A stretch of DNA of 64,000 nucleotides, taken from assembly GCA_030068145.1 (NCBI GenBank), contig JAPJBO010000328.1, forward strand, positions 124,001 to 188,000, in the 5' to 3' direction. Shown piece by piece: positions 6,371-56,984 of the stretch. How positions within the stretch are numbered: position 1 is the first letter of the stretch; every line of letters begins with the position of its first letter. The stretch comes from Diplonema papillatum (lineage: Eukaryota; Euglenozoa; Diplonemea; Diplonemida; Diplonemidae). The notes under the pieces are model-generated. The model was not told the origin of the DNA. It ran no database searches and saw only the letters and a list, made by a program, of their open reading frames with translations. Made by a program: the position numbers and the translations under genes.

Positions 6371-6469
6371 TGGCTGTGGAAGACGTGTTGGAGGGGGAAG
6401 AGGCTGCGGATACGATGACGTGTTGCGTCGGCCCCCTGTATTTTTTTCACTGCGGTGTTGTGTGCACCT

Positions 6470-6525
6470 CGTTCTTCTAGCGTTATTTGTGGACTAGAAG
6501 GTCGGTATTTTAAAGTCTCCGGTTG
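6470..6525 (-). promoter_or_regulatory. Shared 5'-flank motif upstream of the GT61-like gene
   Basis: About 120-150 bases before the ATG, plus-strand GAAGGTCGGTATTTTAAAG followed by TCTCCGGTTGACC. The same string, slightly varied, lies before the gene starting at 15102 and, as a solitary copy, at 43395. The nearby TTCTAGCG resembles the TTCTAGACTG block of the other genes. The role as core promoter is inferred from recurrence. Confidence 0.45.
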
Positions 6526-15102: not shown

Positions 15103-15154
15103 TGGAAATATTTTTGCGGTGGTCTCCGCTGGCCCGGTAGTTTGTTGCTACCGC

Positions 15155-15216
15155 CAACTTCTAGACTGTTTTCCTGTAGTAAGCGGTCGGTTTTTTGAAG
15201 TCTCCGTTGGACTTGT
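15155..15216 (-). promoter_or_regulatory. Shared 5'-flank motif upstream of the gene starting at 15102
   Basis: TTCTAGACTGTTTTCC (about 55-70 bases before the ATG) is followed by GCGGTCGGTTTTTTGAAG and TCTCCGTTGGAC (about 80-115 bases before). Both blocks are shared with the genes at 504 and 6370. Recurrence at similar distance from unrelated genes argues for a core promoter or 5' UTR signal. Confidence 0.45.
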
Positions 15217-15983
15217 GAGGCGGGGGGTGGAAATGTTTCTTGGGTTTGAAGAGCGCGTGGTGCTTGCACCACTGAGGCCAGGTTATTTAACCGCGGATTT
15301 AGTGAAGGATTGTTCAGGAAACGGTCGCGAGCGAAACCCGACCAGGTAACGACCATTTCACTGTCTTCTTTGTTTTGTGATGCGAACATCACGAGGTGCT
15401 GTCCGAAGACACCGCCCACGTGAGCACTGTTAAGCATTGAGTTCTTTTAAGTACATGAACCACGTGGATTAACATGCACATGTTAAGCAGCGGTTGCCAG
15501 ATACTCCCGTAGCACCTATTCACGGGTTTGCAGGGGTAAAAAGGAAGGGGGGGTTTTCCTTTTGTGTTGTTAGAGCAGGGTCTGGGCAGTGTGTTTTCAT
15601 TCCTTTTCGTACTTTGTGTCGCTTTTGCTTTACTGTTTACTGTCACATGTGGTTGCGCATCCGTATAACTTCGTTTTTAGCGTATGTGACGGACTCCACT
15701 TCTTTTACACTCGTTCACTTCTCTTCTCACTACTGTACGTACTCTTTCACTCTTTTTCTCACTTTGGCTAGCCTGTGTGTGGGGGGGGGAAATCTTAGTG
15801 CAGTGTTCAAGCAGAGCACTGCCTCTCATGCATGGTTGATGCTAGCATCAAGTCTTCTTCGAGGAAGATGATGTCTAGGAAAGGGATGCAAAATAGAAAG
15901 AGGTAAAAAGGGGAGTGTACGGCTCCCAAAGTGGGGTATGAAACCTTGAGGGACTAGCCCCCCTGTGTTTTTCGTAACAACAA
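15217..15983. other. Non-coding stretch with a short dispersed repeat
   Basis: No gene recognised. AATCTTAGTGCAGTGTTCAAG at about 15790, followed by GATGCTAGCATCAAGTCTTC near 15838, is repeated at about 16370-16440. Looser relatives occur near 9490-9540 and 43600-43640, so this is another low-copy dispersed family of about 90 bases. Confidence 0.5.
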
Positions 15984-16169
15984 CTAATTGTAAACACGAA
16001 AGAAAACGCTGGCAGCGTGTTTGGGAGAAGATTAGCCTACCGATCATATTCACTCACTATCACTCACTAACAGGCTAATCCTCCCCCGGCACGTACAAAC
16101 AAAACATGGCACTAACTCGGACTGACATCCTCGAGGGAGAAGTCGAATGGGGTGTTATCCCCGTCGTGA
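15984..16169 (+). pseudogene. Inverted copy of the promoter and first 20 codons of the zinc-binding gene at 25401-25925
   Basis: This plus-strand segment matches the minus strand of 25862-26045, including the 5' flank with the dyad GATTAGCCT...AGGCTAATC, the ATG at about 16105 and the codons MALTRTDILEGEVEWG. The match ends at CCCCGTCGTGA. Here the sequence continues GTGAGTTAC, a textbook splice donor in phase 0 after the valine codon, while the other copy continues as coding. Either this is a 5' exon of a relative with an intron, or a fragment created by local duplication. No downstream exon is recognisable, so I treat it as a fragment. Confidence 0.65.
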
Positions 16170-16665
16170 GTTACTAAGAATCCCAGTTGCGGCACAACTG
16201 CACCTTTATGTGCCCGACAGGGTGCACCTCTCTGTGGTTGTCACTACCGTCCACCACAGAGACTGTCCCGGGGAGCAAAAGAGCCATGCGAAGAAGGCGA
16301 GTGTTGGGGTACTGTAGCAGTGTGCGGGGATCATTCAAGAACACTTGGCAGTAATCTGCGCGGTGGGGAGAAATCTTAGTGCAGTATTTAGGCAGAATCT
16401 TGCCCCCTATGTATGTTTGACGCTGTCATCAAGTCTTCTTCGCGGGAACGCGGAGTATTGTTTTCTTCGTGCGGTCGATGATACACGTCGTTCTGATGTC
16501 TGGCGATTTTTTCTAATTGCTTTTGCTTGTGTTCCCTTGTGGATCTCTAACGTTCTGCTTTCAACAAATTCTTCCTCTTTTGGGGGACAATCCCCACTCA
16601 CCGATTAGGTTGTCGTTTCTTTTTTTCGCTTTGCTTCTTTCGTTGTCGACTACTTCTTTCTTAGC
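16170..16665. other. Non-coding; second copy of the AATCTTAGTGCAG repeat
   Basis: Holds the 16370-16445 copy of the dispersed repeat described at 15790. Otherwise T-rich DNA without a supported gene. Confidence 0.45.
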
Positions 16666-16850
16666 GGTGTGATCCGGTGGCCTTACTCGGCTGTACAAGA
16701 GGGTGCACTCGGGAAGTACTTGAGAAGTTCACGGGAAGTACTAAATGCAGAAGATTGTCAGAAATCGCCGTTTTACCCTATTTGGGGTGTACATGGGAAG
16801 TATTTGGGAAGTTCTTTAATAAGTTCATGGGATGTTAAGTGGATCACACC
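16666..16850. mobile_element. Short inverted-repeat element (MITE-like), 185 bp
   Basis: Perfect 10-base terminal inverted repeats GGTGTGATCC (16666) and GGATCACACC (16841-16850) enclose a non-coding interior with repeated GGGAAGTA and AAGTTCATGGG phrases. I see no clear target duplication and no second copy in the window. Confidence 0.55.
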
Positions 16851-16885
16851 ATTATAGTATGGTGATTTTAGGATTTTTTTCTTCA

Positions 16886-17100
16886 GTTGACGATTTCCCA
16901 AACTAAAGCATCAAGGCGTGGCGCACCTTGGGGCTTGGGGTTTGCGCTGAACACAAGCTCGTCGAGACCGTCAGCCACAGGGCAGAGCGGACGGAGTTGT
17001 AGCACTGTGCTGCCTCCGACTCAAGCTTTGCAAACTGTGATTGACCGTCACGTTCCTGGACCAGGTGCGGCTCTTCTCTTCTCTCCTTATTTTCTTCTTT
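16886..17100 (+). repeat. Dispersed repeat family D, partial copy
   Basis: Matches the right two thirds of the full-length copy at 6671 (from AAACTAAAGCATCAAGGCG to the T-rich tail). It lies about 60 bases inside the predicted intron of the alpha-kinase gene, in antisense orientation to it. Confidence 0.75.
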
Positions 17101-17163
17101 CTTTTTCTTCGTTGTCGACGAATTCTTCCTTCGGTAGGATCTTTTTCAGATGACGTGGCATAC

Positions 17164-17725
17164 CGGAAACTTCATAGGTGAAGTGCGAGAAGGCCAAGGG
17201 CGTGAGCTGCATGTCGCGAGAGACGAACGTCGTGTTGCTCGTCCACTTCTTGTACGTGCCCGCGATCAGAGGCTCGGCGGCGCCGTACAGCTGCTCGGTG
17301 AACCGCTTGGGAAGCGATTCGTCGCGGACGGCTTTCTGCGAAGAATCCTTCAGGTGCACGACGCTGGCTGGGAGGAAGTGGACCTCCTTGGGCGGTTTCC
17401 GCTCGTTGTACATCCCCGCGTATAGCCCGGCTTCGTGCTGGATGCGCACGTCGGTGAAGCAGTCGATTTTGGCCTCTTGTGCCGTCCGCTTCTCGCGGAA
17501 GAACTTGAGGACGAACATGTCGAGCCCCGGCCCGTCCTCTTTCGGCACCGCCATCTTGTGCACGGAGCGGAACGCGCCCTTCCCGAGAGGGTTGGGCGCC
17601 AGGCGCACGGCGACCGTCTTGCAGCGGAAGGCGGGGATCTCGTTGTCCTCCACGTCGAACCACTGCACGTTGACCAGCGGCCACTCCTCCGGGTTTTCCT
17701 CCACCGGCATGGTCTTCTTTTTCAT
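17164..17725 (-). CDS. Alpha-kinase (MHCK/eEF2K type), first exon
   Basis: From the ATG at 17725 the frame encodes the N-terminal half of an atypical alpha-kinase domain. NPLGKGAFRSVHKM (about 47-60) is the glycine-rich start with the family arginine. FVLKFFREK (about 72-80) carries the ATP-binding lysine. EPLIAGTYKKWTSNTTFV (about 150-167) and LTPLAFSHFTYEVSG (about 174-188) match the hallmark PQAFSHFTYE segment. The family then needs the DLQGV, zinc-site and C-lobe parts, which are absent. Instead the codon for Gly is split by CCG|GTATGC, a good splice donor at 17163, so the gene continues in another exon. I cannot find that exon in the ~1.5 kb downstream, which holds repeats only. The open frame reads on to a stop at 17087. 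Either a long intron or a truncated gene. Confidence 0.7.
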
Positions 17726-17762
17726 CTTTGCCCCTCTTTTTGCAGCTTCCTGACGTATTTTT

Positions 17763-17781
17763 TCGGTGTGTGAAGGACTCC
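17763..17781 (-). promoter_or_regulatory. Variant of the shared 5'-flank motif, upstream of the alpha-kinase exon
   Basis: TCGGTGTGTGAAGGACTCC lies about 40 bases before the ATG at 17725. It aligns with TCGGTTTTTTGAAGTCTCC before the gene at 15102 with a one-base gap. Position and similarity make it a fourth candidate for the same promoter signal, weaker than the others. Confidence 0.3.
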
Positions 17782-17862
17782 AAATCGCGAAGAAATGCGT
17801 AGTTTTGTTTTATTCTGATACTTGTTTGCTGTCGACATAGCTCTTTATCCTACGAGAGAAAA

Positions 17863-36921: not shown

Positions 36922-37363
36922 CATGCAGGGTCAAAACCTTGTGTCTTTTTTAAACGCTGCCGCGGGGCCGATGGCCCCGCGGCAGCGTTTATTATTATTA
37001 TTTGTTCTTCGCTTACACCACCGTGTGTTGTTTTCTCACTCAGGATTTTTTGACCTGTTGTGTTTGTGTGATTTGTCGTGTAGGGGTAGACCCGCATGAC
37101 CTCACGTCCGTTCGACACGTGGTTCGGTAGTTACAGCACTTGGGATCCCTTCTGTTCTTTGTCGGGCAGCATCGTCGAGCATTTCCTTTCAAGCTGGCGC
37201 TTATGTAAAAAAATTGGAAATAAAAATTTTTTTTTTGCTCAACTTCATCAAAAAATCACCGCAGTGTTTGTTCCAAAATTTTATAATTTAAAAACCCCAA
37301 TTTTTTCTGGAAAAAAAATGGGTGGCCATTTGCCAAAAAGACACAAGGTTTTGACCCTGCATG
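36922..37363 (+). mobile_element. M1 element with a retroposon C insertion
   Basis: Left terminus CATGCAGGGTCAAAACC at 36922, right terminus GTTTTGACCCTGCATG ending at 37363, flanked by ATAG and ATTG (imperfect target duplication). The left-end dyad is complete here: CGCTGCCGCGGGGCC and GGCCCCGCGGCAGCG. Between it and the A/T-rich interior lies retroposon C (36996-37215), so C inserted after M1. Confidence 0.85.
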
Positions 37364-37503: not shown

Positions 37504-37804
37504 ATCTTATTTCCCATCCCTTTGATTTTTTCCGCCGGCAGTACAATGAGACGTTGAAGGAAGACGTTGGATAGGAGGAGGAAGAGACGATTCTTCGTTT
37601 GGGTTTTTATTACGACGCAGCGAGCGTCGGGGTCCCGTGGAGAAACACAGGACCACCTTGCTCCTGTCCTTGCGAGGTTGCGAGGGGGGCCGGTCGATTG
37701 AATTCTTCCCGCTATGGAACAGAGGGCCCGTTGACTCGCAGGAGGAAACACTTCTGCGGGGTACCCTCTTCCGTGTGCCAATCACGCGGAAGGAAATCCA
37801 ACCG
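37504..37804 (-). repeat. Split direct repeat B2 of retrotransposon A
   Basis: 301 bases beginning ATCTTATTTCCCATCCC and ending GGAAATCCAACCG, identical by eye to B1. Forms the 3' terminus of the element. Confidence 0.95.
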
Positions 37805-37866
37805 GAGGAGCAAGGGTTTTCGAATACGAACTGTGCGAACCCTTTCCAAGGGACGGGTGGGAGGGA

Positions 37867-38002
37867 ACTTTGAAATTTTTTCTGACCTGCGGGTCAGTGG
37901 CGCAAAAAATCGGAAAGGGAGAAGGTGTGTGTTTGGGTGTTCACCTATATTGTTGGGAGAATAAGACCAAGCGAAAAAAGACTGCGTGTTTTTTCTCACC
38001 GA
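37867..38002 (-). repeat. Split direct repeat A2 of retrotransposon A
   Basis: 136 bases from ACTTTGAAATTTTTTC to TTTTTTCTCACCGA, matching A1. It shares its last base with the start of B1, so B1 and A2 are directly joined, as expected for the internal junction copy. Confidence 0.95.
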
Positions 38003-38302
38003 TCTTATTTCCCATCCCTTTGATTTTTTCCGCCGGCAGTACAATGAGACGTTGAAGGAAGACGTTGGATAGGAGGAGGAAGAGACGATTCTTCGTTTGG
38101 GTTTTTATTACGACGCAGCGAGCGTCGGGGTCCCGTGGAGAAACACAGGACCACCTTGCTCCTGTCCTTGCGAGGTTGCGAGGGGGGCCGGTCGATTGAA
38201 TTCTTCCCGCTATGGAACAGAGGGCCCGTTGACTCGCAGGAGGAAACACTTCTGCGGGGTACCCTCTTCCGTGTGCCAATCACGCGGAAGGAAATCCAAC
38301 CG
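38002..38302 (-). repeat. Split direct repeat B1 of retrotransposon A
   Basis: 301 bases, identical by eye to B2. It starts 37 bases after the stop codon of the RT/RNase H frame. Confidence 0.95.
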
Positions 38303-38339
38303 TATTAAGAACAAAGCCCCCCCCCTCTCTTCTCTCCGC

Positions 38340-40988
38340 TTACAAACTCCTTGTGTCCATGTCTGCCACCATGTTCTGACTCGGCACGAGGTGTGTTCGG
38401 ACGTCCGCCTTCTGCAGATGCGCGCACAGTCCGACAAGGAGATGGTTCTCGGCCAAGTGGGGGGACGCCAGCTTCCTGCACCGGCTTTCTGCGGTGCTAT
38501 TGTCATGGAAAGCCTCCATCCTCACCCAACCGACCGAAATCTCTCTCGCGACGCGCAGACCGATAGCCGCTGATACGAGTTCTCGGCGCCGTATGGGCGT
38601 TGGCGGGGCCAGCTGCGTCAGTTTATCTGCCCAAGTCCACCGCTCTCGAACGAGAACCACGCCCCTCGTTGGGTCCAGCACCGCGAAGGCGCCTCCCTCA
38701 TCGGAAGCATCCGCCCAGATATGCAAATCTCTTGTGGGGTGACCGACTTGGCGTGGATTGCATTCGCGAAGCCACTTTTTCCCCGCGTTGACCTCCTCCA
38801 GCAGCTTCTGCGAGGGCGCGACCAGAGTGTCCCAGTCCTTGTTGGTTATGCACCTTCGACTTATCTGCCTGTTGGCTCTGAGCAGCCTTGGATACGCAGC
38901 CGCCGGACTTCTCATTATATAAAGGGCCCACCGCAGGCAACCAATGAATTGGGCCAGACCCCTGAACGAAGTGATCTTTCCTGGCGTTTCTTGACCTGCC
39001 ACAGCATCTGCCCACTGACGCGGGACAGCGAGCGTCTTCTCTTCGAGATTTAGCTGGACTCCGTCAAAGACTCCTGTCGAAGATGGGATAGTCACCTTAT
39101 CCTCCCTTATCTGGATATTCGCATCTGCAATGGCTTTTCTCAGCCGCTTCTCTTTTTCACGCACATCCTCTTCGGTCGAACCGCCCAGCCCAATATCGTC
39201 GTATACCGCGAGACTACTGTCTGAAACACCGGCAAGACGCCTAACCCCAAGGGTTGACAGCTGCGCAGCAGTGGGGGCGCGGGATATACCTGGCACCGCG
39301 ACAGTGAATACATAGTACTCGCCACCCCTTGCCCTGAAACCGAGAGACTCGGATAGGGCCTGTGACACTGGTAACTGATAAAAATATCCCAATAAGTCCA
39401 GAACCATGAAGAAAGAGAACTCTAGTACAAATGACTCTATGTCCCTAAGCGACGGGGTCTTTGGCGATAGCACCCGTGCAGTGCGCAGGTCGAAGGGCCG
39501 ACCGTCAATCAGCAGTCGAGTCTCGCTCTTGCCCTTTTTCGCCACTTTAAAAACTCGTAGCGTGATCCTCGGCCTTCGCTCTGCAAGTCGCACGATGCCG
39601 CACTTCAGCATCGCGCTGAGGTCGCCTTGCGTTATATCCAGGCTGGGTAGCGCCTGATACCTCTCCGTGGTGGTCAACAGCAGTTCCTGTGTGCATTGCC
39701 GCAACGTGAACGCCTCTGTGTCGGTCAGACCTTGCTCGATCACTGCATAGTTTGCCCTCGTGTTTGGCAAAGTGTCCAGAGGTCCGTCGGCCGTCTGGAG
39801 AATCGGCCTTGGCAGAGACCTCATGTATGAGCGCGTAGACAGCGCGCCCAGAACTGCTTCAGATGACCGGACCTTCGCTTTAACATCGGGCCGTGCCTCG
39901 ACGACGAAGCTCTCGACGCGCTCCTTTCTGTCGTACTCCTCTTCCGATTTCTCACCGAGCTCGCCCTGCATAGCGGCTTCTGCCCAGGCAAGCACTTTTA
40001 GTGTTACCTTTCTGGCGTCCGGGTGAAACTCTTCATTCCACTCCTTGAGGGGATGGAACACGGCCAGATTGCTGGCGTACCACGGACAGAAAGTACTAAC
40101 CTTTGGTGTACCTTTGACTTTCAGCGCGGTGTCGTCCCGTGGACTAGCTACGTGGAGGGCTTCCATGAGGGAGCAACTTATGCTTCGCCCGGAGCGCGTT
40201 CCCTTCAAAGCGGGGTTCCCTCGTAGTGGCGGCTGCTCTGCGGAGCGGGCTCCACCTTGCCAAAGGTGCCTACGCTGCTCTTTGTCGAGCACTCCCTGCA
40301 GGAGCGGGTGCCTCTGCGGAGGCGGGTGCTCTGCGGAGCGGCTTCCCTCTGGGAAGGGGGGCGTCTGCGGCGGCGGTTGTTCTATGTTCCTCTGCGGAGG
40401 TAGTTGCTCTGCGGAGCGGCTTCCCTCCGAAAAAGGGCGCCTCTGCGGAGGCGGTTCTGCGAAGTGTCTCTGCGGAGATGTTTGCTCTGCGGAGCGGATT
40501 CCCTCTGGAATGTGCCTCTGCGGAGACGGTTGCTCTGCGGAGCGGATTTCCTCTGGAACTGGAAAGTGCTTCTGCGGAAGCAGTTGCTCTGCGGAGCGGT
40601 TTTCCTCTTGAACTGGGGAGTGCCCCTGCGGAAACGGTCGCTCTGCGGAGCGGATTTTCTCTTGAGCTGGAGAGTGCCTCTGCGGAGGCGGTCGCTCTGC
40701 GGAGCGGATTCTCTCTTGAACTGGAAAGTGCTTCTGCGGAAGCCGTTGCTCTGCGGAGCGGTTTTTCTCTTGAACTGGGGAGTACCCCTGCGGAAGCGGT
40801 CGCTCTGCGGAGCGGACGTTCTCTTGAACTGGAGAGTGCCTTTGCGGAAGCGGTTGCTCTGCAGAGCGAATTCCGTCTGGTAAAAAACACCGTTGCTGAG
40901 ACGGTCGCCCTGCGGGACAAGCTACCTCACTGGCGCGTGCAGGTGCGCAGACAGTCTTTCGGTCCGTCGGTGGTCTGGGGTCACGCAT
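38340..40988 (-). CDS. Retrotransposon A reverse transcriptase / RNase H
   Basis: 882 codons if the ATG at 40988 is used. This frame is also open upstream to an ATG at 41852, but that part overlaps the recombinase gene in another frame and looks like a shadow. Residues ~20-270 are a Pro/Gln/Arg-rich repeat of about 18 residues (RSAEQPLPQ plus a variable half). RT starts near 474: FFMVLDLLGYFYQLPVS carries the first catalytic Asp, GISRAPTAAQ is the B motif, and LAVYDDIGLGG is the Y-D-D box (about 596-598). RNase H begins near 753 with IWADAS, RRRELVSA, AFHDNSTAE and NMVADMDTRS supplying D-E-D-D. The start overlaps the end of the recombinase frame by about 65 bases and is in its -1 frame, so start choice, reinitiation or frameshifting is open. 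Confidence 0.88.
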   Translation of the reverse strand: MRDPRPPTDRKTVCAPARASEVACPAGRPSQQRCFLPDGIRSAEQPLPQRHSPVQENVRSAERPLPQGYSPVQEKNRSAEQRLPQKHFPVQERIRSAERPPPQRHSPAQEKIRSAERPFPQGHSPVQEENRSAEQLLPQKHFPVPEEIRSAEQPSPQRHIPEGIRSAEQTSPQRHFAEPPPQRRPFSEGSRSAEQLPPQRNIEQPPPQTPPFPEGSRSAEHPPPQRHPLLQGVLDKEQRRHLWQGGARSAEQPPLRGNPALKGTRSGRSISCSLMEALHVASPRDDTALKVKGTPKVSTFCPWYASNLAVFHPLKEWNEEFHPDARKVTLKVLAWAEAAMQGELGEKSEEEYDRKERVESFVVEARPDVKAKVRSSEAVLGALSTRSYMRSLPRPILQTADGPLDTLPNTRANYAVIEQGLTDTEAFTLRQCTQELLLTTTERYQALPSLDITQGDLSAMLKCGIVRLAERRPRITLRVFKVAKKGKSETRLLIDGRPFDLRTARVLSPKTPSLRDIESFVLEFSFFMVLDLLGYFYQLPVSQALSESLGFRARGGEYYVFTVAVPGISRAPTAAQLSTLGVRRLAGVSDSSLAVYDDIGLGGSTEEDVREKEKRLRKAIADANIQIREDKVTIPSSTGVFDGVQLNLEEKTLAVPRQWADAVAGQETPGKITSFRGLAQFIGCLRWALYIMRSPAAAYPRLLRANRQISRRCITNKDWDTLVAPSQKLLEEVNAGKKWLRECNPRQVGHPTRDLHIWADASDEGGAFAVLDPTRGVVLVRERWTWADKLTQLAPPTPIRRRELVSAAIGLRVAREISVGWVRMEAFHDNSTAESRCRKLASPHLAENHLLVGLCAHLQKADVRTHLVPSQNMVADMDTRSL
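40180..40920 (-). repeat. 54-base minisatellite inside the RT-frame N-terminus
   Basis: About 12 imperfect units containing TGCTCTGCGGAGCGG (plus strand) at a period of 54 bases, with some of 45-57. The period is a multiple of three, so all reading frames stay open across it, which gives several long spurious frames. In the RT frame each unit encodes RSAEQ-PPQ-type residues. Confidence 0.85.
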
Positions 40989-41836
40989 CCCCAAAGGTAC
41001 CGCCGCAGTGTTGTCACCGATGTGTGCCTCGCAAGGAGCAGAAGCTCCTCCCAGTCGGCACCGCCCCTTGCCAGGTGCTGTAGCGCGCCTCTCTTCCAGC
41101 TGTGCCCAGAGCAAGCCGGCGCAACGTTTCTCGCTATACGCAGCAGGGTCTGTGCGGTCGTCTTGCCGAACGTCCCACGGCGCGCCAGCCAGCTTCTCAC
41201 TTTCGACGCCATATTCAGTGGGAGCCTGTAGGACACTTCTGATTCGTGCAGGCGAAGGCTTGCCTCTTTCGAGGTCCACCAAGCAATGCGAACTATACCA
41301 GGGGCCTGCATCGTTACGTCTCCGGACCTCAGAGCGGTCAGGTCTGCCATCCGTAACGCACAGCTCCATAGGAGCGTCGCCGCAGCCGCGAGCTCCTCGT
41401 CTCCCGATACGACGCCTATGATCGTCTGTGCCTCCTCGAAACTCAGCGGGACCGCGTGGCTCGGCGTCTCCCTTCTTTCCAGACGTCGCTTCAAGATCGC
41501 CCTTTTCGTCTTCGCCAGGTCGGCCGCTGGAACACCCCATCTTGAGCCCAACACGCTGACGTATTGCTCCACCGACACCGTGCGCATTTTCCCGGTCCTC
41601 GGGCGGCCCCGTCTGCCGGCCTCCCGCGCCGTGTAGCGGGCGAGCTGGGCCCCGCTCATTCCGTCGAGCATTGCAGCCGCGAATGCCTTGATCCGGAGGG
41701 ATGCCGGTGCTGCTCGAAGCCCTGCAGCTTGTGTGAACTTCTCCAAGGTCCCCTCCATCGACAGACGCTGTTTTCTCGTCGATGACGCTAAAGCTAGCGA
41801 CTCGAACTTCTCGATTTTTCCCTCCCAGGACGCCAT
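40922..41836 (-). CDS. Retrotransposon A tyrosine recombinase
   Basis: 304 codons from an ATG at 41836, 12 bases after the gag stop and in the gag frame. Residues 1-100 are an alpha-helical SAM-like core-binding domain. The catalytic domain shows LLWSCALRMADLTALR (R162), SGHSWKRGALQHLA (H245), ELLLLARHTS (H271) and TTLRRYL (Y280). The box that is normally H-x-x-R reads H-S-W-K-R: Lys is at the canonical second-Arg position with Arg right after it. The enzyme would cut and rejoin DNA during integration of the circular cDNA. The gene sits between gag and RT, unlike DIRS and Ngaro, where it is last. Confidence 0.88.
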   Translation of the reverse strand: MASWEGKIEKFESLALASSTRKQRLSMEGTLEKFTQAAGLRAAPASLRIKAFAAAMLDGMSGAQLARYTAREAGRRGRPRTGKMRTVSVEQYVSVLGSRWGVPAADLAKTKRAILKRRLERRETPSHAVPLSFEEAQTIIGVVSGDEELAAAATLLWSCALRMADLTALRSGDVTMQAPGIVRIAWWTSKEASLRLHESEVSYRLPLNMASKVRSWLARRGTFGKTTAQTLLRIARNVAPACSGHSWKRGALQHLARGGADWEELLLLARHTSVTTLRRYLWGCVTPDHRRTERLSAHLHAPVR

Positions 41837-41848
41837 CTGGGAGGGGAG

Positions 41849-42805
41849 TCATTCGTTTTTTGGAGGTGCGTTCCGCTTGCCCGAGGGCGGCACCGATACC
41901 CGTTGCGGCGCCGCTACATGCCTGAATCTACAGCGTTCGCGCATGCAACGCCCATTGCGGAAGTTATGGCAAATTGCCGACGGCCCCTTCGCACTCGTAC
42001 TCCGGTCGCTGCCGCGCTGCCTGATTGCAGCTTTCAGACGCCGGCGTGCTTCTGCGACGTGTCGTGGAAGGCGCGAGGCCTCCTGTATTCCTCGCATTTC
42101 CACCCCTGCAGCCGGGTTCCGCGTGTCGTAGACCGCCTGCAGCTGTTCGTACTCGTTGAACAGCCGAGTCAGCTTTAGCAGCCACATCGGCGTGGCCATC
42201 GGACCCCGCATTCGCAGGTGCTCCCGGACTTTGGTAGTCACATCATCCCGTCTCTCCTGCAGTTCCCTATTGCTGCGAAACCTGTACAGGCGTGACACCG
42301 TACCTTCGAGAAGAGCAAAACCCCCGACCCCGATAGGAGCGTCCTTCCAAAATGTCGCCTCCAGCATCTTGAAGTCGTCTTCCTCATCCTCGTCAAGCAC
42401 CATACTATTTCCCACTGGGGGCACGTGCCGGTCCAATAGCTCCAACGCCTCCCGCTCATCGCCCGCCAGGGCCAATTCCTGCAGCGCATCGGCGTCCATC
42501 TTCTGCCAGAAGCCCGGGTACTCATCCTCGAAGGCATCAAAGATGGCCCCCGCCCGATCGACGTCCAACATCGGCAGCAACGCTTCGGGACGCAACTCCT
42601 GTTGTGGTGCTGGCCTGCTTCGCTTCGCCCGCGGTTCATCCGGGTCCTCCAGCGGTCTTCCCCGCTGCTGCTGCTGCTCTTTCAGCCGCTCTTCAGCCTC
42701 CCTCAGCTTATCCTCGCGCTCTTTAAGCGACCGCTCCAGCTCCTCCATCCTCTTCTCCCGTTCCAGAAGTTCATCCCCGTTTCTCGCCTGCGCCTTCGGC
42801 GGCAT
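41849..42805 (-). CDS. Retrotransposon A Gag-like protein with CCCH zinc finger
   Basis: 318 codons from an ATG at 42805, 13 bases inside the end of A1. A charged coiled coil (LEREKRMEELERSLKERE, about 13-50) is followed by an acidic middle and, at 279-296, CHNFRNGRCMRERCRFRH, a C-x7-C-x4-C-x3-H finger. In other retroelement Gags nucleic-acid binding is done by CCHC knuckles, but CCCH types occur in tyrosine-recombinase elements. The gag stop codon overlaps an ATG in the -1 frame (ATGA at 41852), and the recombinase ATG lies 12 bases downstream, an arrangement suited to coupled termination and reinitiation. Confidence 0.85.
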   Translation of the reverse strand: MPPKAQARNGDELLEREKRMEELERSLKEREDKLREAEERLKEQQQQRGRPLEDPDEPRAKRSRPAPQQELRPEALLPMLDVDRAGAIFDAFEDEYPGFWQKMDADALQELALAGDEREALELLDRHVPPVGNSMVLDEDEEDDFKMLEATFWKDAPIGVGGFALLEGTVSRLYRFRSNRELQERRDDVTTKVREHLRMRGPMATPMWLLKLTRLFNEYEQLQAVYDTRNPAAGVEMRGIQEASRLPRHVAEARRRLKAAIRQRGSDRSTSAKGPSAICHNFRNGRCMRERCRFRHVAAPQRVSVPPSGKRNAPPKNE

Positions 42806-42817
42806 ATTCTGGTCTCG

Positions 42818-42953
42818 ACTTTGAAATTTTTTCTGACCTGCGGGTCAGTGGCGCAAAAAATCGGAAAGGGAGAAGGTGTGTGTTTGGGTGTTCACCTATA
42901 TTGTTGGGAGAATAAGACCAAGCGAAAAAAGACTGCGTGTTTTTTCTCACCGA
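42818..42953 (-). repeat. Split direct repeat A1 of retrotransposon A
   Basis: 136 bases matching A2, forming the 5' terminus of the element. On the plus strand it is followed by an 18-base A-rich run and CGCACGAAG. Confidence 0.95.
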
Positions 42954-43634
42954 AAAAAAAAAAAAAAAAACGCACGAAGTCGGTTCCGAGTTTTTTAATT
43001 TTACGATTTACTTTTGGGCAAGGTGCCTTAGGGGACTCGTCCCTGTGGGAAATATGCCTGTGGGACTAGTCCTCGTTGGGCACATTTCACATTGGGGCCT
43101 ACAACCTAAGGGAACGTGGCAGTTAGACTTTGGCGGACACTTGCCGGCATGCCGGCTGCCAAACATCCCGTGACACCGCACAAGGTGGTAAAACGCTCTT
43201 TTGTTTTCTTTTCGATTGCTTTTTGATGAAAAAGAGGGAACACTTGGTGAATCCCCGCTAGGATTATTTATAGGCTGCCCATTTCACCGACGACGCAACA
43301 GGACCGCGGGCAGGTTCGCAACGGGGTCGTAAGCGTCGTCAGGATGGGCTGAACCCGTGCTTCATGTTTAGCGTTTATTGTGCTTTAGAGGTTCGGTGTT
43401 TTAGGGCCTCCGGTTGACCATTGAGGCTGTGAGGCGGGTGGTATGAGGGTAGGCGACCGACAGCAAGAAGAAATTCGCTTTGAATTTAGCCTCGGGCCCC
43501 CCACGCGCATGCATGTTGAGCAGGGGTTGCCATGCAGCTCGTATCGGTCTGTAATATGCGTTCTTACTTTATTTTAGGTTGAGGAGGACGTGTTTAAGCG
43601 GAACATTGCTGCTTGTACACGGGCGATGCTAGCC
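42954..43634. other. Non-coding stretch with an orphan copy of the 5'-flank motif
   Basis: At 43390-43425 GAGGTTCGGTGTTTTAGGG and CCTCCGGTTGACC match the motif upstream of the GT61-like gene; TGTGAGGCGGGTGG following it matches 15220. Reading leftward from it, only retrotransposon A is found. Either the gene once served has been displaced by the element, or the motif belongs to a dispersed repeat. Confidence 0.45.
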
Positions 43635-49802: not shown

Positions 49803-51531
49803 AAGGGGGGGGGGCGAATAATTGTACCTGACAACTATTTGATTTGGGCAATTAAGAAAAGTCTTTTTGACCCAACTTCGTCGGCGAATAATTGGGGGGG
49901 TCAAATAAGAAAAAATATTTCGGTGCAACCGAAGGAAACAGCATCCCCAGGCAGCGCTGCAAGCGAGGGCACCACGGAGCACGGCCAGCGGTGAAGCGAG
50001 GGCCTGACGGCCAACGGGGTGCCGGAGCCGAAGCCGCGGCCCCAGGCCCGCAACCAACGGATCGGGCGCGTGTCGGAGCAAGCGGGTCGACCGCGGGACC
50101 ACCGACGAACGGTGAACGTGCGTTAGGGACGGACGGCGCCTGCCCGCGAAAGCGCGGACGCGACGACGAGCAAGCCGGTGGAAGCGCCGCAGAAGCCGAG
50201 GCCGCAGCAGCCGTCAAAGGTGGCGAAGGCAAGGAACATCGGGGAATCGAGATCCCGGCCGCGGGGACAACCCGCGAGGGAGAAAAGGAAGTGCGCTGGA
50301 TCATCTGGTGATTCCTTGAGCTCGTCAAACTGCACAGCGGACGTGAAGCGCACCGGAGACACACAGTACGCGGGGCAAGAAGCCACCGAAGCATGGCACA
50401 ACGCGTGCAAAGAGGTAGCGGCTTGTGCAGTCTCACAGATTGTTGCTGCATATCAAGTTCAAACTACTGCTGCAACTACGTTCCGTTTCAACTTGCCCCT
50501 GAACTGCAGAAGCCGTGCTGTTAGTGACAGTCCGGACCGGAAATAACCCGGACGGAAAAAGTCTGGAACGCTGGAGCATAGCAGTACGTACTCTACGTAC
50601 TCATACTGCGTGGTGGTGTGTGCATGCATAACATACGTTGCTGCTACGTACACTATGTAGATGCTACGTACGCATACGCGCTGCTGCTACGTGCTATTGC
50701 TACGTGCTGCTCCATGTTTATTCCGGATCAAAATATTTCCGGCCTGGATTTACAGCAGTCCAGAATGTACTTCTATTTAGGGTAAGTAGAAAGGGCGCGG
50801 GGCGACGCCACTGACTTAGACACACGGGCAAGACGGCGGAAGCTGGCCGCCCGCTAGTTCTTCTCGTAGCTAGCCATCGTGATATCCTTCACCGTATCTC
50901 ACGCGGCAAGCACTTCGGACCCAAGCGGTACTGCGCAGATTGTAGATCGTATTGATGTTCGAGGACAAAGAAACATCAGGATCATTTGATGTTTCTTTAT
51001 GGCCGGGTGCGGTCCGTGCTGTGTTTTCAGAGTGTAAGTTCACATTTTATGTCTTCAGATCGTGGCTATTCGCGTCGTTCATTCACCCGCCTCGTCTGGT
51101 ATCTCATACACTCCGCCGAACGTGCGATCGAGGACTTCGTCCAGTGCCATCTCTTTGGCTGTCAAGACGGCACCCCCGCCATCCCGGGACCATACCCCCA
51201 TGCCCCGCCCTTGACGATGGCCTGGCTGATGAACCGGCATAAGGCCTAGCACAAAGCCAATCCAAGGGACCCATCGCGACTCTCTGCGGAGGGTGATCGA
51301 GTTGTGGAGATCGAGTTGTGGAGATCGAGTTGTGGATGCCGCGCAGTATCGCGTATTGCGAAATGACGCAGATCTGCTGGAAGCATGGGAGGGCAATTTT
51401 TGGGTGCTACCTGACTGTTGTCCGTCGCACGGTTGTCTCTGTCTGGCAAATAATTGGGGGGGTCAAATAAAAAAAAACTTTTTGGCATACAGGTGTCTGT
51501 CGAATAAGTACAACTATTCGCCCCCCCCCTT
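49803..51531. mobile_element. 1.7-kb DNA transposon with G-tract inverted termini and TA target site
   Basis: Left end AAGGGGGGGGGGCGAATA plus ATTGTAC; right end GTACAACTATTCG plus nine C and TT. These are inverted repeats of about 24 bases with one mismatch and a one-base difference in the G tract. TA lies on both sides (49801-49802 and 51532-51533), the signature of Tc1/mariner-like insertion. Within M1 the pre-insertion site would read CTTTTTAGAAATGG. A second motif GAATAATTGGGGGGGTCAAA occurs inside near both ends (49893 and 51447). I see no DDE transposase, so the copy is probably non-autonomous. Confidence 0.7.
49892..50546 (+). CDS. Coding-like segment inside the TA-flanked transposon, unknown function
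   Basis: Two overlapping plus-strand frames: one to 50311 with DDEQAGGSAAEAEAAAAVKG and one from 50178 to 50546 with QPAREKRKCAGSSGDS and EATEAWHNACKEVAACAVSQ. The second is shared, in inverted orientation and with a break, by 32240-32520. Preservation of the phrase in both copies suggests it was once translated, possibly with a frameshift or intron joining the two frames. No transposase motif and no family recognised. Confidence 0.3.
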
Positions 51532-51543
51532 TAGAAATGGCCA

Positions 51544-51683
51544 TAATACTCTCCTCCTCGCCCGTCTCGCTGCTCCGTACTCGCTGCTCTCGTCCTTGCT
51601 GCTGCGTGATGTCAGATTGATGGTGCGTAACAAACGTAGAAAGGTCATGCAGAGATTCTCGTGTGTATGCCACGAACTTCTTC
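51544..51683 (-). repeat. Split direct repeat B2 of retrotransposon B
   Basis: 140 bases from TAATACTCTCCTCCTCG to CACGAACTTCTTC, identical to B1. Terminal at the element's 3' end. Confidence 0.95.
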
Positions 51684-51734
51684 GTGACGCCTCAGGACAC
51701 TGGACTAGAAGATAAAAATGGGCAAGGGTGGGTG

Positions 51735-51854
51735 GGCAAGCGAGGGGTAAAATTACGGTGTTCTTCTCGAGAGCGACGGGGTAATAACCTTTGTACAAGT
51801 GTTAGTTCTCGTCGGAATAGTATTAATCTTCTAAGATCTTCGATCTTATACGAC
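51735..51854 (-). repeat. Split direct repeat A2 of retrotransposon B
   Basis: 120 bases from GGCAAGCGAGGGGTAAA to CGATCTTATACGAC, identical to A1. AAGATCTTCGATCTT near its end is a short dyad. Confidence 0.95.
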
Positions 51855-51994
51855 TAATACTCTCCTCCTCGCCCGTCTCGCTGCTCCGTACTCGCTGCTC
51901 TCGTCCTTGCTGCTGCGTGATGTCAGATTGATGGTGCGTAACAAACGTAGAAAGGTCATGCAGAGATTCTCGTGTGTATGCCACGAACTTCTTC
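51855..51994 (-). repeat. Split direct repeat B1 of retrotransposon B
   Basis: 140 bases, identical to B2, directly joined to A2 at 51854/51855. Confidence 0.95.
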
Positions 51995-52075
51995 ACGTGC
52001 GCGGAGTCGCTGCGTTGACATAACAATGATCAAGATGTAAACTTTCAGAGAAGTGTCCTGGGCTAAAAATCCATT

Positions 52076-53715
52076 TCAAAACCATGATTGCGGCGTTGGT
52101 AGACCGCGCGATAGCGGGTCGGCGAGCTGCTCCTTCGTGGAAACATACGCCAATTCCAGCCGCTGTTCTCTGAGAGCGGCAGTCCTCTTCGCCGACCTGA
52201 GCACCTCAGCCGTGAGGAAATCGCGGCATCGCCCGCGCGCCGCGGAATGAACGCATACGGTGTTGTCCACCATCGCCCTTATAGTCGCCCTTCGTGGAAG
52301 GAGGGGTGAGATCCGCACTACGCCTTTCAACAAAGCGCGGGCCTCCAGCCTGTGTATTGGCTCGCCCGACTCACAAGCATCCCATGTGCCCCCTTCAGCG
52401 AAGAAACCAGAAGCTAGAATGCCCCAACCGGAGAGGGAGGCATCCGTGTAAAGGAGGAAGACGCGCCCCCGGGTCTTCTCTGGCACGCTGTGCCACTGGC
52501 CAATTTCCCGTGTGACCGCCCGGAGCGCCGAAGCAAAGGAAGGCCATATCGGACAAGCCGTGTCCCAGAGCCGCGGTTGGTCAGCTAGGAGCCTGCCGAA
52601 GCGCGACTGGAAACGAGACAGTGTCGGGTAGTCCCACGCATCAATGCCTAAGAAATACATGTGGAAATTTACCGTGCCCAACACCCGGTAGGCCTCTCTG
52701 AACGTGCAAGCGCGCTCCGCCGCGGCGACGGCGTCCGTGAGGGCGTTTACTACCTTCGAAGGGGCTCGAAGAAGGTTCTTGGCGAGATCGACGTCGAGTC
52801 CCAGCCACGTCACACGCGAACGCGGAGCATACTCCTCGTCTTTCGTCTTCAGGCCAACAAAACTGGACACCGCTTTCCAAGTTTTCCACACACTCAGCAT
52901 CGTGCGTGAATCGGGGGCTGAAAGGAAGAAATTGTCCACCCAGGGAGTGACGCGTCCGGCGGGGCATTTCTGCCTAACCACTCGCGCTAACAAATCGGCC
53001 AAGTTTGTCGCGACACCCATCGACTTGTCCCAACCCATGGGCATCACTTTGAGGACCCTCTTCCCATGTATCGGAAGTCGCATCCCAAAAGCTAGAGAAA
53101 TGGACGGGTGCAAAGGAAAAGCGTGGAAGTAGCTCACGGCGTCCACCTCGAGGCCCATCACCGATGCACGTATTGTGTCCCACACCTCTTCCCTTGAGGG
53201 TAGGACCGTGGGGGGTCCGGGGTCCGGTGTGGCGTGCTCGTTGAGCGCCTTCGGCCAACATATGAGGCGCCCCTCGTCCGGTGTTTTCTTCGCGACGGTG
53301 AACAGCCTCATCTCGGTGATGGGGGTGGCCTTCGGCACTCGTCCGGTGATCGACGACATTGCCACGTCGGCAGCGTGGTTTGGGTGGAGCCTTGAGAGCG
53401 GCTCGAGCAGCCGTCGCCCCCAGAAACGCTGATAGTTAGCATAAAAGAAGTCCGGGTCGCGGATCCACCTCGACGCCTCGATCCATGCGTGGCCGCCGAC
53501 GCTGTGCGCTAGAACATCTGCCCGAACAAAATTTAGCAGAGGTGGTGATGACTGAGCGATTCTAGCAGTCGGAAGTGCGGGAGGGTGAGTCTTACACGCC
53601 TTGCTCGCGTTTGAGTCCCATAGCAGGACCGCGTTGCTCACCGATGGCTTCACGGCAGCATCATCGTGAAGAAAGGAGGCAAGTTCATCTCCTTTTAATT
53701 TTCCGTCAGGGCTCG
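52076..53715 (-). CDS. Retrotransposon B reverse transcriptase / RNase H
   Basis: The frame is open from 54466 (a GTG, in shadow of the recombinase gene) to the stop at 52076. The part with real content begins around SPDGKLKGDELASFL at the recombinase stop (about 53715), so the start given is approximate. No ATG lies near it, and the frame is -1 relative to the recombinase, which makes a frameshift fusion plausible. RT motifs: LEVDAVSYFHAFPLHPS (first Asp), PMGWDKSMGVATNLAD (B motif) and TPWVDNFFLSA, where the usual D-D pair reads D-N. RNase H: LLYTDASLSGWG, HRLEARALL, AMVDNTVCVHS and STKEQLADPLSRG supply D-E-D-D in DIRS-type spacing. The D-N change may mean an inactive RT or a lineage variant. 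Confidence 0.82.
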
Positions 53716-54603
53716 GGAGGCGCCGAGCTGTGTCCGCACGTGACACCTGGGGGCGTAGCGGATGAGTCCGTTGAGGGTGGCGTGGAGGGTCAGGGTCCTG
53801 ACAGCCTCGGGATCGGCAGCTGTGAGGGCGTGTTGTGCGGCTCCTCTCCGGATGGAGTGAGCCGTGAGTCCCTTCGGCAGAAGTGCTGCGTACTGCGCTG
53901 TCGTCCTGTCGCCCCCGAGTGTTTCGTCCGGCAGCTTCCGGGACAGGTACGTCGTGATCATGTGCCGCAGCTTTCCGGACCAGACTTGCGTCACGATCCC
54001 GACGTTCCGCCAGTCCTTCCTCTCCGTCCACTCTATCTCGAGCACGCCGTCTGAAGAGCACTTCACCGCTCCCACGCGCTGTCTCCTCACGTCTCCGACT
54101 CTCGACGCTGTCAACCATGCGACCGCGAAGATCACCGCCGCCTGAGGATCGCTCTTGACCAGCCGGTCCACCGTCCGATACAACACGTCTTTCGATATCG
54201 GCGCCGCCTGTCGGGGCACGCCAGCTTTCAGCTTCGCGAGGCCTCTCTGAGCCATCGTGATCCGATAGTCGTTGAGGACAACGCCTTCCATGCGCAGTGT
54301 CGCGCGGATGTTGGCGACCTCGGTGAGTATCGAAGTGGGCTTTAGCCCCTCGGCGTGGCACCACCCGATGAACGCCAGCAACTGGTCTGCCGGCGGGTGG
54401 CTCTGGAGTCGGGCTTGGACCACAAACCTCGTCCACTTCGCGGCGGAGTACCCCATGTTTCGCCACGTAGCCTCGGCGTAGGAGGCGCTGTACACGCGGT
54501 GGAGGGCGTGTGTGATCCGCTCTTGCGTCGCGTTTCGAAACGTCTTTAGCGGTCGTCCCGGACGCGTGCTGCGGCTTCTTGGCCCCAGTGGAACGACGCT
54601 CAT
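53695..54603 (-). CDS. Retrotransposon B tyrosine recombinase
   Basis: 302 codons from an ATG at 54603, 13 bases after the gag stop. N-terminal helical domain (about 25-125), then the catalytic domain with AWLTASRVGDVRR (R168), GLTAHSIRRGAAQ (H249, R252), RTLTLHATLNG (H274) and LIRYAP (Y283). All five catalytic residues of the family are present. It would integrate the circular element DNA. Positioned before RT, as in retrotransposon A. Confidence 0.9.
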   Translation of the reverse strand: MSVVPLGPRSRSTRPGRPLKTFRNATQERITHALHRVYSASYAEATWRNMGYSAAKWTRFVVQARLQSHPPADQLLAFIGWCHAEGLKPTSILTEVANIRATLRMEGVVLNDYRITMAQRGLAKLKAGVPRQAAPISKDVLYRTVDRLVKSDPQAAVIFAVAWLTASRVGDVRRQRVGAVKCSSDGVLEIEWTERKDWRNVGIVTQVWSGKLRHMITTYLSRKLPDETLGGDRTTAQYAALLPKGLTAHSIRRGAAQHALTAADPEAVRTLTLHATLNGLIRYAPRCHVRTQLGASRALTEN

Positions 54604-54616
54604 GAAGGGGTAGCCT

Positions 54617-55432
54617 TCACCAACGATTACCCCTCCCCGAGTTCCATCCGCCTTTTCCGCCCTTTCCGTTTTTTCGTCCGTCGCCCTTAAACGACGACTC
54701 GCGGGGCGCGCTGTGCCCCCTGTACCCCTTTCCGCCGTGCCGTAGACGGTGTTCTGCGCCCCTGGACCGGAAGCGGGACGGCATCTTCTTCATCTCCTTG
54801 TCGTAGGCGTCCTTGAGCTCCGAAATCTCGGACGGGAACTCCGCCCACTTCGCCCGCTGTTCTGCCGCCGCCAACGCCCTTGGGTTCCATCTCCTTGTGA
54901 TGGCATCGCGTATCAGGCCGCCTATGACGTCCTGAATGGCGGGGTCGCGCATACCGGGGACGAGCTGACGAATGACTTCAAACGCACGCGCCACCTCGCG
55001 TTTGGCGCTCGCCGCTCTCAGCGTGGACGGACCCCAGGTCCGCTTCGCCTCTTCGAACGCGCGCCAGGGATCACGGAGCCACTCAGCGGGGTCGGCCAGT
55101 TCCCCTTCCGAGAACGGGGGTCTCGTATGCCACTGCGGCTCAGGGTGAAAGGGTAGGGGGGCCTGCGCCTGGCTCGCTTCTGCGTGCGCAACGCGCGCCC
55201 TTGCCTCTGCCTGATCGTCGGCTTGCCCGGCTGCGTCGTCCGAATCTTCGTCTCCGTCTGTCTCGTCGTCACTCTCCTCTAGCGGGGCGCCGTCTTTCTT
55301 CTCGACGATGCGAGCGGCGACGTCGGCCTTCGAACGCAGGCCCTTAACGTCGACCCCGAGTTCGGCCGCGATAGCGCGCAACTCGACGAGCTTGAGGGTT
55401 GCCAGATATTCTGCTGTGACCTTTTTCGGCAT
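54617..55432 (-). CDS. Retrotransposon B Gag-like protein
   Basis: 271 codons from an ATG at 55432, just inside A1; the open frame continues upstream through A1 without a better start. Residues 4-45 (AEYLATLKLVELRAIAAELG and KSKADVAARI-type pattern) resemble a SAP/helix-extension-helix DNA-binding motif. An acidic stretch rich in Asp/Glu follows (about 50-75), then a helical middle, and the C-terminus is Gly/Lys/Arg-rich (RHGGKGYRGHS, GKGGKGGWNSG), suited to RNA binding in place of zinc knuckles. No similarity to the Gag of retrotransposon A. Confidence 0.78.
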   Translation of the reverse strand: MPKKVTAEYLATLKLVELRAIAAELGVDVKGLRSKADVAARIVEKKDGAPLEESDDETDGDEDSDDAAGQADDQAEARARVAHAEASQAQAPLPFHPEPQWHTRPPFSEGELADPAEWLRDPWRAFEEAKRTWGPSTLRAASAKREVARAFEVIRQLVPGMRDPAIQDVIGGLIRDAITRRWNPRALAAAEQRAKWAEFPSEISELKDAYDKEMKKMPSRFRSRGAEHRLRHGGKGYRGHSAPRESSFKGDGRKNGKGGKGGWNSGRGNRW

Positions 55433-55442
55433 CTTTACTTGA

Positions 55443-55562
55443 GGCAAGCGAGGGGTAAAATTACGGTGTTCTTCTCGAGAGCGACGGGGTAATAACCTTT
55501 GTACAAGTGTTAGTTCTCGTCGGAATAGTATTAATCTTCTAAGATCTTCGATCTTATACGAC
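55443..55562 (-). repeat. Split direct repeat A1 of retrotransposon B
   Basis: 120 bases, identical to A2; 5' terminus of the element. Its inner edge lies 11 bases from the gag ATG, so it should contain the promoter and 5' leader. Confidence 0.95.
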
Positions 55563-55744
55563 AAAAAAAACTTTTTTTGGAAAAAAAAAATGGGTTTTTT
55601 GAATTTTAAAATTTTGGAAAAAACTCTGCGGTAATTTTTGAGGAAGTTGAGCAAAGTTTTTTTTTTCCAAAAAAAAAAATGGGGGGGTCATCGGCCCCGC
55701 GGGAGCGTTTTAAAAAGACACAAGGTTTTGACCCTGCATGGTAT

Positions 55745-56984
55745 GTAAAGGGATACTCCCACTGCCTTGACTTCAAGCCTCCAGGGGTTCGAGCAAGATG
55801 CTCGAACTTTTCACTCTCAACAAGCTTTCCCATGACGGCTAACTCTCCCCCCCCACCCGATGCTGGAGGGCACCGTGTAGGGATGCAAAGGGGAGGAACA
55901 AACTTAACCCTCGGGGTACGACACGCACAGGAGGGGTCCTGACGACCATGTACTTTTTTTTTTTTCTCGGCGTCGCTGTTCGGGTGCGATTGTTCTCGAG
56001 TTTCTCGCGGCACCGGTTTTCCTATGCGCTGCAGGAGATCTCGGGTGACACCGGGGCTCATGGGTTCAGATGGAGACGGAGGTGTCTCTCCGCCTGGAGG
56101 TTGCGGAGGTGGTTTCATTTAGCACGACAGTGTGACAGTTAGAAGCACGCACACGGAAGGAACTGATGAGACCTATACGCGACGGAGCCCAGCCCAGAAG
56201 CTGGAACTACAGAGAGTTATGCCCGAGTCACACCCGAAAAGCGGGTGTGCTGCAACCAAACCGCGTGGAAAATGGACCCCTGATCCAGCTTCAGCTCCGG
56301 CTTTATCGATCCCACTTGACGGCCACCCAGCGCATGCGCTGAGGGTTTACGAACGTTGGTTTGCTTTGCAACTTCAGCGGTTGCGCTGAGGAAAGCTACT
56401 GGCTCTGTGTGTCGTCACCAGCATGGGAACCGATGTGCTGAGAGCTGCTGTATAGGTGTCTCTGCTGACGTCAGTTCTTTGCACTTCTCGTTCCACACAA
56501 CGATCCCCGCGTCGAAAGCCTGCCATGTTCGACAAAAAGTCCATTTGCACGAACTGCAGCTTGGTTGAAACCGCCGGAGAGAGTCTTGAATACGGTTGAA
56601 AAGCCAAGGCCCCCTCACCTTGTTGTCAAACAGCTCGGCCTTGAGCTTCTGTTCTTCTTCGGTGAGGCCGACAGACGCTGCCAGGATTTCGTCGACTTGC
56701 TTCTTCTACCTCTTCATTCAGACCAGCATGAGGACCGATGTGGGTGTCTCGTTGCTGACGTCAGTTGTTTCGCGTCGCGCACCTCTTCTTCAGACCAACA
56801 TGAGGATCGAGGATCTCAAGGTTGCGGCTGCCTTTCTCTTCGTTCGCTTGGACGCCTAAGCGCGCATGCGCTGGGAGTTGATGACCTTCTGCGCCGCAGC
56901 TGCCACACCGCGGACGTCGATTTGAGCTCCGTTCTGTGGGTGTGGGTTCGTAAAACACCTGCAAAATGTGTCGCCAAACCGCCG
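55745..56984. other. Gene-poor stretch with a worn H-family element
   Basis: At about 56175-56310 AGCCCAGAAGCTGGAACTA, CACACCCGAAAAGCGGGTGTG and CCAGCTTCAGCTCC are the remains of an H-family foldback element. CCAGCATG-(A/G)-G-ACCGATGTG plus TGCTGACGTCAG occurs near 56420-56470 and 56725-56765. No gene supported. Confidence 0.45.

Follow-up and report, generated by a model that had tools for sequence, protein, structure and literature searches.

A probable VIPER-type tyrosine-recombinase retrotransposon in the diplonemid Diplonema papillatum, and the conserved sequence around its gag stop codon

The gene order of VIPER retrotransposons is said to have been laid out by Lorenzi in 2006. According to a figure legend in PMC12278014, VIPER elements of Trypanosoma, Crithidia and Bodo carry gag followed by a tyrosine recombinase (YR) and a reverse transcriptase/RNase H (RT/RNase H), and PMC3783388 (2013) gives them as known only from Kinetoplastida. 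TATE elements of Leishmania, Crithidia and Bodo are described with the same build and split repeats (PMC6681497, PMC12278014). Ngaro elements, for example those of Cafeteria, are given as A1-[open reading frames (ORFs)]-B1-A2-B2 with solo AB repeats and a YR instead of an integrase (PMC8547959). A stretch of 64,000 nucleotides (nt) from contig JAPJBO010000328.1 (the window) was analyzed here and was confirmed to contain, at 37504-42953 on the minus strand, an intact YR retrotransposon (element 1) with the order gag-YR-RT/RNase H and split direct repeats A1...B1-A2-B2. The DNA is almost certainly that of Diplonema papillatum, a diplonemid and thus of the sister group of Kinetoplastida, and the original prediction, made from the letters of the window alone, was right that the host is no trypanosomatid. 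D. papillatum is a free-living marine flagellate.

The D. papillatum assembly is given as about 280 Mb with 52% repeats, and the species as sister group of Kinetoplastida (Valach 2023, PMC10161547). More than 60 ORFs resembling DNA transposon proteins are reported there, TATE among the names, and the main text does not mention VIPER, DIRS or tyrosine recombinase. The existence of such elements in this genome is therefore partly in print already. No description of VIPER-type elements in diplonemids, or of recoding at a gag stop as proposed below, was found in the open-licence literature, the supplement of Valach 2023 lying outside the search. Element 1 belongs to a known kind of element, found here in a new group of hosts, and its conserved gag-stop site is apparently undescribed so far. 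The literature consulted here gives no answer on how enzymes are expressed from the heavily overlapping frames of YR retrotransposons. A comparable arrangement is gag-pol recoding in retroviruses and long terminal repeat (LTR) elements, where according to PMC5009743 pol is reached either by a -1 frameshift at A_AAA_AAC, a structure lying downstream, or by reading through the stop.

Element 1, its families and its copies

Element 1 comprises the following features.

42818-42953, minus strand: A1, 5' split direct repeat, 136 nt, 100% identical to A2 (37867-38002)
41849-42805, minus strand: gag ORF, 318 aa, with CCCH finger; stop TGA at 41849-41851
41855-41861, minus strand: heptamer A_AAA_AAC, in phase with gag; a single codon separates it from the TGA
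41820-41845, minus strand: predicted 9-bp hairpin just past the gag stop, arms CCCTCCCAG and CTGGGAGGG, 8-nt loop
40922-41848, minus strand: YR, 308 codons, continuing the gag frame immediately past the TGA
38340-41852, minus strand: ORF3, in the -1 frame relative to gag; carries the RT
40451-40936, minus strand: tandem array of 54-bp units (18 residues each, keeping the ORF3 frame), between YR and RT
38340-40199, minus strand: RT/RNase H part of ORF3, with YDD motif
38002-38301, minus strand: B1, 300 nt, 100% identical to B2
37867-38002, minus strand: A2, 136 nt, 100% identical to A1
37504-37803, minus strand: B2, 300 nt, 3' end of element 1, 100% identical to B1

Coordinates and gene order agreed with the original prediction, as did its account of intact frames and repeats: the gag, YR and RT/RNase H frames are all open and both repeat pairs are identical throughout. 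The tandem repeats, the gag-stop site and a second element at 51544-55565 (element 2) are additional to it. The Gag finger reads C-X7-C-X4-C-X3-H (Pfam zf-CCCH_3, E 1.5e-4, short of the Pfam cut-off). The YR matched Phage_integrase in Pfam at E 4e-5, also short of the cut-off, and its predicted model (predicted local distance difference test score, pLDDT, 74) was nearest to Cre (Foldseek E 4e-7). Families related to element 1 and to element 2 are termed the first and second clade. A YR profile of six sequences, from five first-clade families and element 2, matched Cre and XerA (best E about 0.001-0.003). The element 1 RT alone reached E 0.016 with RVT_1, short of the cut-off, and an RT profile of six sequences from both clades matched Ty3 RT at E 2e-7; the predicted RT structure (pLDDT 42) was too poor and was left unused. 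The recombinase had been predicted with the residues R, H, K/R, H, Y. Its identity as a recombinase stood, and the K/R is Lys: the HxxR motif (YR 40922-41836 in the window copy) reads HSWK, with Lys at the second arginine position, in all five first-clade families aligned, although copies look active. Pfam matched no methyltransferase or hydrolase domain in any ORF of element 1 or 2 or, among relatives, in their RT regions, the part of them that was scanned.

The genome searched comprised 271,365,524 bases in 2910 contigs. For the element 1 RT 85 of 1511 candidates were scored and for the element 2 RT 81 of 2527; copy numbers are therefore lower bounds, and the fourteen stretches read were taken from far larger candidate sets. 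The order gag-YR-RT was kept in families L050, L047, L048 and L049, whose YRs are 86, 58, 57 and 57% identical to that of element 1. L051 and L052 were added to the first clade; L052 equals L049 around the gag/YR junction, so that six families, element 1 included, were counted. The second clade comprises element 2 and families at 78, 71 and 52% identity, of each of which one member was read (L053, L054, L055). YR precedes RT in all ten families read, six from the first clade and four from the second, unlike Ngaro, where RT comes before YR. The ends of element 1 carry direct repeats only, the two inverted pairs found lying outside the element, and inverted terminal repeats of the DIRS type, with an internal complementary region, were absent. 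The possibility, named beforehand, that the recombinase is a stray fragment inserted between gag and RT was rejected, since it occupies the same place in every one of the ten families.

The element 1 YR was found in at least 14 full-length genome copies at 100% identity (two of them, on C1678 and C1445, have a common left flank and may be one place), and the RT in at least 10 full-length copies at 100% among the 85 scored. Element 2 RT gave at least 24 such copies among the 81 scored. Between element 1 and L050, nonsynonymous (dN) and synonymous (dS) divergence were 0.118 and 0.962 for gag and 0.077 and 0.828 for YR; in the seven pairs compared, all three genes (gag, YR and RT) had dN far under dS (the dS of one RT pair was not computable), which shows purifying selection on them. 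As judged from sequence, element 1 is recently active and recently amplified. The genome thus offers many identical, apparently young copies together with a sharply defined conserved site.

The gag stop codon and the frame open through the recombinase gene

In the first clade the gag stop stands in the context A_AAA_AAC NNN TGA CTC(C/T)CCTCCC, and the heptamer is in phase with gag. All six families aligned have the same heptamer, TGA and CTCYCCTCCC; five of them had been picked by RT similarity before the motif was seen, and L051 and L052, drawn from the same list of RT matches, were fetched afterwards. The exact junction pattern had 125 genome matches, its reversed control none. With the stop relaxed to TRR there were 126 matches, and the 100 listed comprised 99 TGA, one TGG and no TAA or TAG. 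The exact junction lay 892-3580 nt upstream on the same strand at 65 of the 71 RT places compared (of the 85 scored). All eleven elements end gag with TGA, a stop used by 12 of 22 YR and ORF3 frames. A reassigned TGA is unlikely, because nearly all RT rows listed are free of internal stops under the standard code (the exceptions being C66 and C321 for element 1, and C355, C16, C113 and C1108 for element 2) and because TGA also ends YR and ORF3.

In each of the ten families the frames of both downstream genes meet at the gag stop. In the first clade the -1 frame leads into ORF3 and RT, and the zero frame past the TGA leads into YR. Between 29 and 62 codons precede the first YR Met in five of six first-clade families, an early ATG being present only in the family of the window copy. 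A hairpin is predicted after the stop in each first-clade family (6/6 for heptamer and spacing), and in element 1 the predicted folding energy of the 49-nt stretch 41800-41848 is -21.7 kcal/mol (z -3.27 against shuffles). The first-clade junction has the in-frame X_XXY_YYZ heptamer and the short spacer of known frameshift signals, together with a predicted structure that goes beyond shuffles in two to three of five families.

Across the first-clade YR the -1 frame contains no stop in seven of seven elements (six families), compared with 13-19 stops in the +1 frame; the junction for these counts was located by the motif itself. Shuffling of synonymous codons gave means of 3.0-8.6 stops and P(0) ≤0.029 for each element, values retained here only together with the bias seen in the RT control region, where the null overstates. 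Control gag frames behaved mostly as expected under the shuffle. When the expected stops were scaled by the RT ratio of each element (our own arithmetic), about 21 were expected over the six first-clade families, and none was observed. The overlapping part of ORF3 changes mostly where YR codons change silently. It looks like a by-product of YR, the genes themselves being under purifying selection, so that the overlap would be a passage and not a conserved protein.

Element 2 is a second complete YR retrotransposon of the window, with the same gene order and repeats.

55443-55565, minus strand: A1, 123 nt, 99% identical to 51735-51857
54617-55432, minus strand: gag, ending TGG-TGA, stop at 54617-54619
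53695-54618, minus strand: tyrosine recombinase, in the +1 frame relative to gag; HSIRRG and Y; open frame from 54789
52076-54616, minus strand: ORF3, in the gag frame past the TGA; free of stops through YR, with RT/RNase H following
51855-51994, minus strand: B1, 140 nt, 100% identical to B2
51735-51857, minus strand: A2, 99% identical to A1
51544-51683, minus strand: B2, 140 nt, 100% identical to B1

The clades are 27% identical in YR over 175 residues and 21.5% in RT over 265 residues. RT motif C of the second clade has VDN at the YxDD position in 4/4 families (element 2 RT, 52076-53698). The N-terminal stretch of element 2 gag is SAP-like (Pfam E 0.02, short of the cut-off), and no finger was found in this gag by Pfam. 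Gag ends TGG-TGA in all four second-clade families, ORF3 staying in the gag frame and YR lying in the +1 frame, with 55-92 codons ahead of the first YR Met in three of the four. The TGG-TGA junction pattern had 63 exact genome matches, all with TGA, and its control none; L055 departs from the pattern except at TGG-TGA itself. Across YR, the RT frame has no stops in 4/4 families and the third frame has 13-17. The shuffle P(0) was 0.016, 0.003, 0.022 and 0.004, and after scaling for the same bias about nine stops were expected over the four families (our own arithmetic), none being observed. In the control-region run one -1 stop was counted for each second-clade YR; this is apparently the gag TGA, brought in by an extra base, and the other counts were 0.

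Expression of the genes and affinity of the elements

On balance, element 1 is probably a VIPER-type YR retrotransposon that makes Gag, Gag-RT and Gag-YR by alternative recoding at one stop. A single messenger RNA (mRNA) would be translated into Gag, with termination at the gag TGA. A minority would slip -1 on A_AAA_AAC and produce Gag-RT/RNase H by passing through the stop-free frame of the YR gene, and others would read UGA in frame to give Gag-YR. In the second clade, readthrough at the TGA would give Gag-RT and a +1 event Gag-YR. The wider proposal, that in both clades the gag stop acts as a three-way switch (termination for Gag, one recoding for Gag-RT, the other for Gag-recombinase) with frame roles swapped and the RT frame held open through about 300 YR codons only as a passage, is in our view about as apt to fail as to hold. 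It would differ from retroviral and LTR-element recoding in having two exits at one stop for two genes, assigned differently by two clades. Reverse transcription of the RNA, aided by the split repeats, would then produce circular DNA, and the recombinase would integrate these circles beside T tracts. Circles and insertion by the recombinase are established for elements of the DIRS order. Models of repeat-aided reverse transcription for Ngaro and PAT elements are mentioned in PMC6681497. With mammalian ribosomes A_AAA_AAC is one of the heptamers most prone to shifting according to PMC5009743, which also states that frameshift and readthrough stimulators can partly replace each other.

Several results weigh against this proposal. 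No slip rule known to us accounts for UGG-UGA, and the +1 step of the second clade is therefore its least supported part. The RT-region -1 frame is itself short of stops, at about 0.5-0.85 of expectation, so the shuffle null is biased and overstates; the weakest single case (L048) had P 0.029, and 0.040 in a second run. Fold z-scores in five first-clade families (L051 left out) were clear in two (-3.3, -2.5), weak in one (-2.0) and without excess in two (-0.7, -0.15). The hairpin as sole proof of recoding was rejected on account of these mixed scores. Six of the 71 RT places compared (C55, C14, C956, C309, C1054, C53) have no exact junction upstream. The window copy has start codons for YR (ATG 41836) and for ORF3 (ATG 41852, ATGA over the stop), and element 2 YR has a start at codon 6, which makes reinitiation possible at these genes.

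YR and RT would be made unfused if ribosomes initiated internally or reinitiated close to the gag stop, at the ATGA overlap or a near-cognate NTG. Element 1 has both the ATGA and a further ATG 12 nt beyond, and all families have NTG as the ORF3 codon over the stop, though any TGA forces that. Among the six first-clade families only one has ATG there, the rest having TTG, CTG or GTG, and an A_AAA_AAC in gag phase has no role under reinitiation, which we consider quite unlikely. Separate mRNAs would make the junction a splice acceptor: a spliced leader would be added at the polypyrimidine stretch and AG, or gag cis-spliced away, leaving YR and RT on messages of their own. CTCCCCTCCCAG directly precedes an ATG in the window copy. 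A 32-base piece of the diplonemid spliced leader had 571 exact genome matches and its reversed control none. Valach 2023 (PMC10161547) likewise has this host using spliced-leader trans-splicing. Yet the AG after CCTCCC is missing from some first-clade families, recombinase residues common to families start ahead of the first Met in the five families with 29-62 preceding codons, and the open RT frame through YR would go unexplained; separate messages thus appear unlikely. Recoding at the gag stop remains the preferred account of expression.

With regard to affinity, the host, order and repeats argue for a likely VIPER-like lineage outside Kinetoplastida. A diplonemid host sister to Kinetoplastida makes shared ancestry with VIPER and TATE the simplest account. 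The A and B repeats of C. fasciculata VIPER are 136 and 288 bp (PMC6681497), compared with 136 and 300 here. Both repeat pairs were found in six of eleven elements (1, 2, L053, L054, L055 and L047, with A in pieces) and one pair in L048 and L049; none was found in L050, L051 and L052, where the stretch may be too short or the pair may have diverged. VIPER frames are drawn overlapped in PMC12278014, and here YR and RT frames overlap wholly; PMC3266345, to the contrary, has Ngaro and Viper usually without frame overlaps. Element 1 differs from VIPER in its diplonemid host, in its CCCH Gag finger, VIPER having CX2CX4HX4C, and in the A_AAA_AAC/TGA/hairpin site, which is not reported for VIPER in what was consulted of PMC6681497 and PMC12278014. 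The CX2CX4HX4C box (CH-box) is absent from several VIPERs too (PMC6681497), and the Gag of TATE, like that of element 2, is without it. No relative among VIPER, TATE, Ngaro, PAT and DIRS sequences was found in the viral or genome contig collections; phage, plasmid and metagenome collections were outside this search.

The elements might instead be Ngaro- or PAT-type, with the recombinase moved before RT in diplonemids and no kinship to VIPER or TATE. Split A1...B1-A2-B2 repeats are common to Ngaro and PAT (PMC6681497, PMC8547959), and the CCCH finger is unlike the CH-box of some VIPERs. Such reordering seems improbable: the host's group is sister to that of the VIPER/TATE hosts, and the order is kept by two deep clades of one genome, with RTs as distant as noted above, and is therefore old in this genome. 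In the VIPER-like assignment, the VIPER-type order reaches the sister group of kinetoplastids, and the lineage is older than thought if a tree bears this out.

Insertion sites, solo units and neighboring sequence

An 18-T tract (42953-42970) adjoins A1 of element 1. For left flanks, eight YR loci were fetched; L001 had no exact A1 match and L003 had the same flank as L002, leaving six, to which the window copy and an L050 copy were added. Each of the eight distinct flanks, seven from element 1 copies and one from L050, contains no fewer than 8 T within 12 nt, as do 0.9-1.8% of window sites. TATE of L. braziliensis, by contrast, is placed in telomere repeats (PMC6681497). The end at B2 recurs in other element 1 copies with differing right flanks, and the difference in flanks among copies shows independent insertions; element 1 may still be mobile today. 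With regard to target-site duplication, which VIPER-like elements lack, the left and right flanks of the copies on C1678, C684, C533, C395, C341 and C868 and of the window copy have at most one to three T in common. One element 1 copy (L012, C341) stops after a single B repeat, without A2-B2, either because B1 and B2 recombined or because the assembly collapsed there.

Solo A2-B2 units of about 500 nt were also present: 23 of the 38 near-complete units listed had no adjacent B1 match (40 of 464 candidates scored). Four that were read (L056, L057, L058 and L060, on C484, C2165, C287 and C300) had unrelated flanks, with T runs preceding L056 and L060 and not L057 and L058. They resemble the short A2-B2 derivatives of VIPER, such as SIRE of T. 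cruzi (PMC6681497), and also the solo AB repeats of Cafeteria Ngaro elements (PMC8547959).

Rfam gave no match over 51000-56500. A 29-nt inverted repeat lies beside element 1 (36922-36950 / 37335-37363); the same 29-nt sequence occurs at the right flank of copy L019 and is therefore probably a piece of a dispersed repeat. The window further contains two host genes, both on the minus strand: a GT61-like glycosyltransferase at 4130-6493 and an alpha-kinase split over two open frames at 12757-17809.

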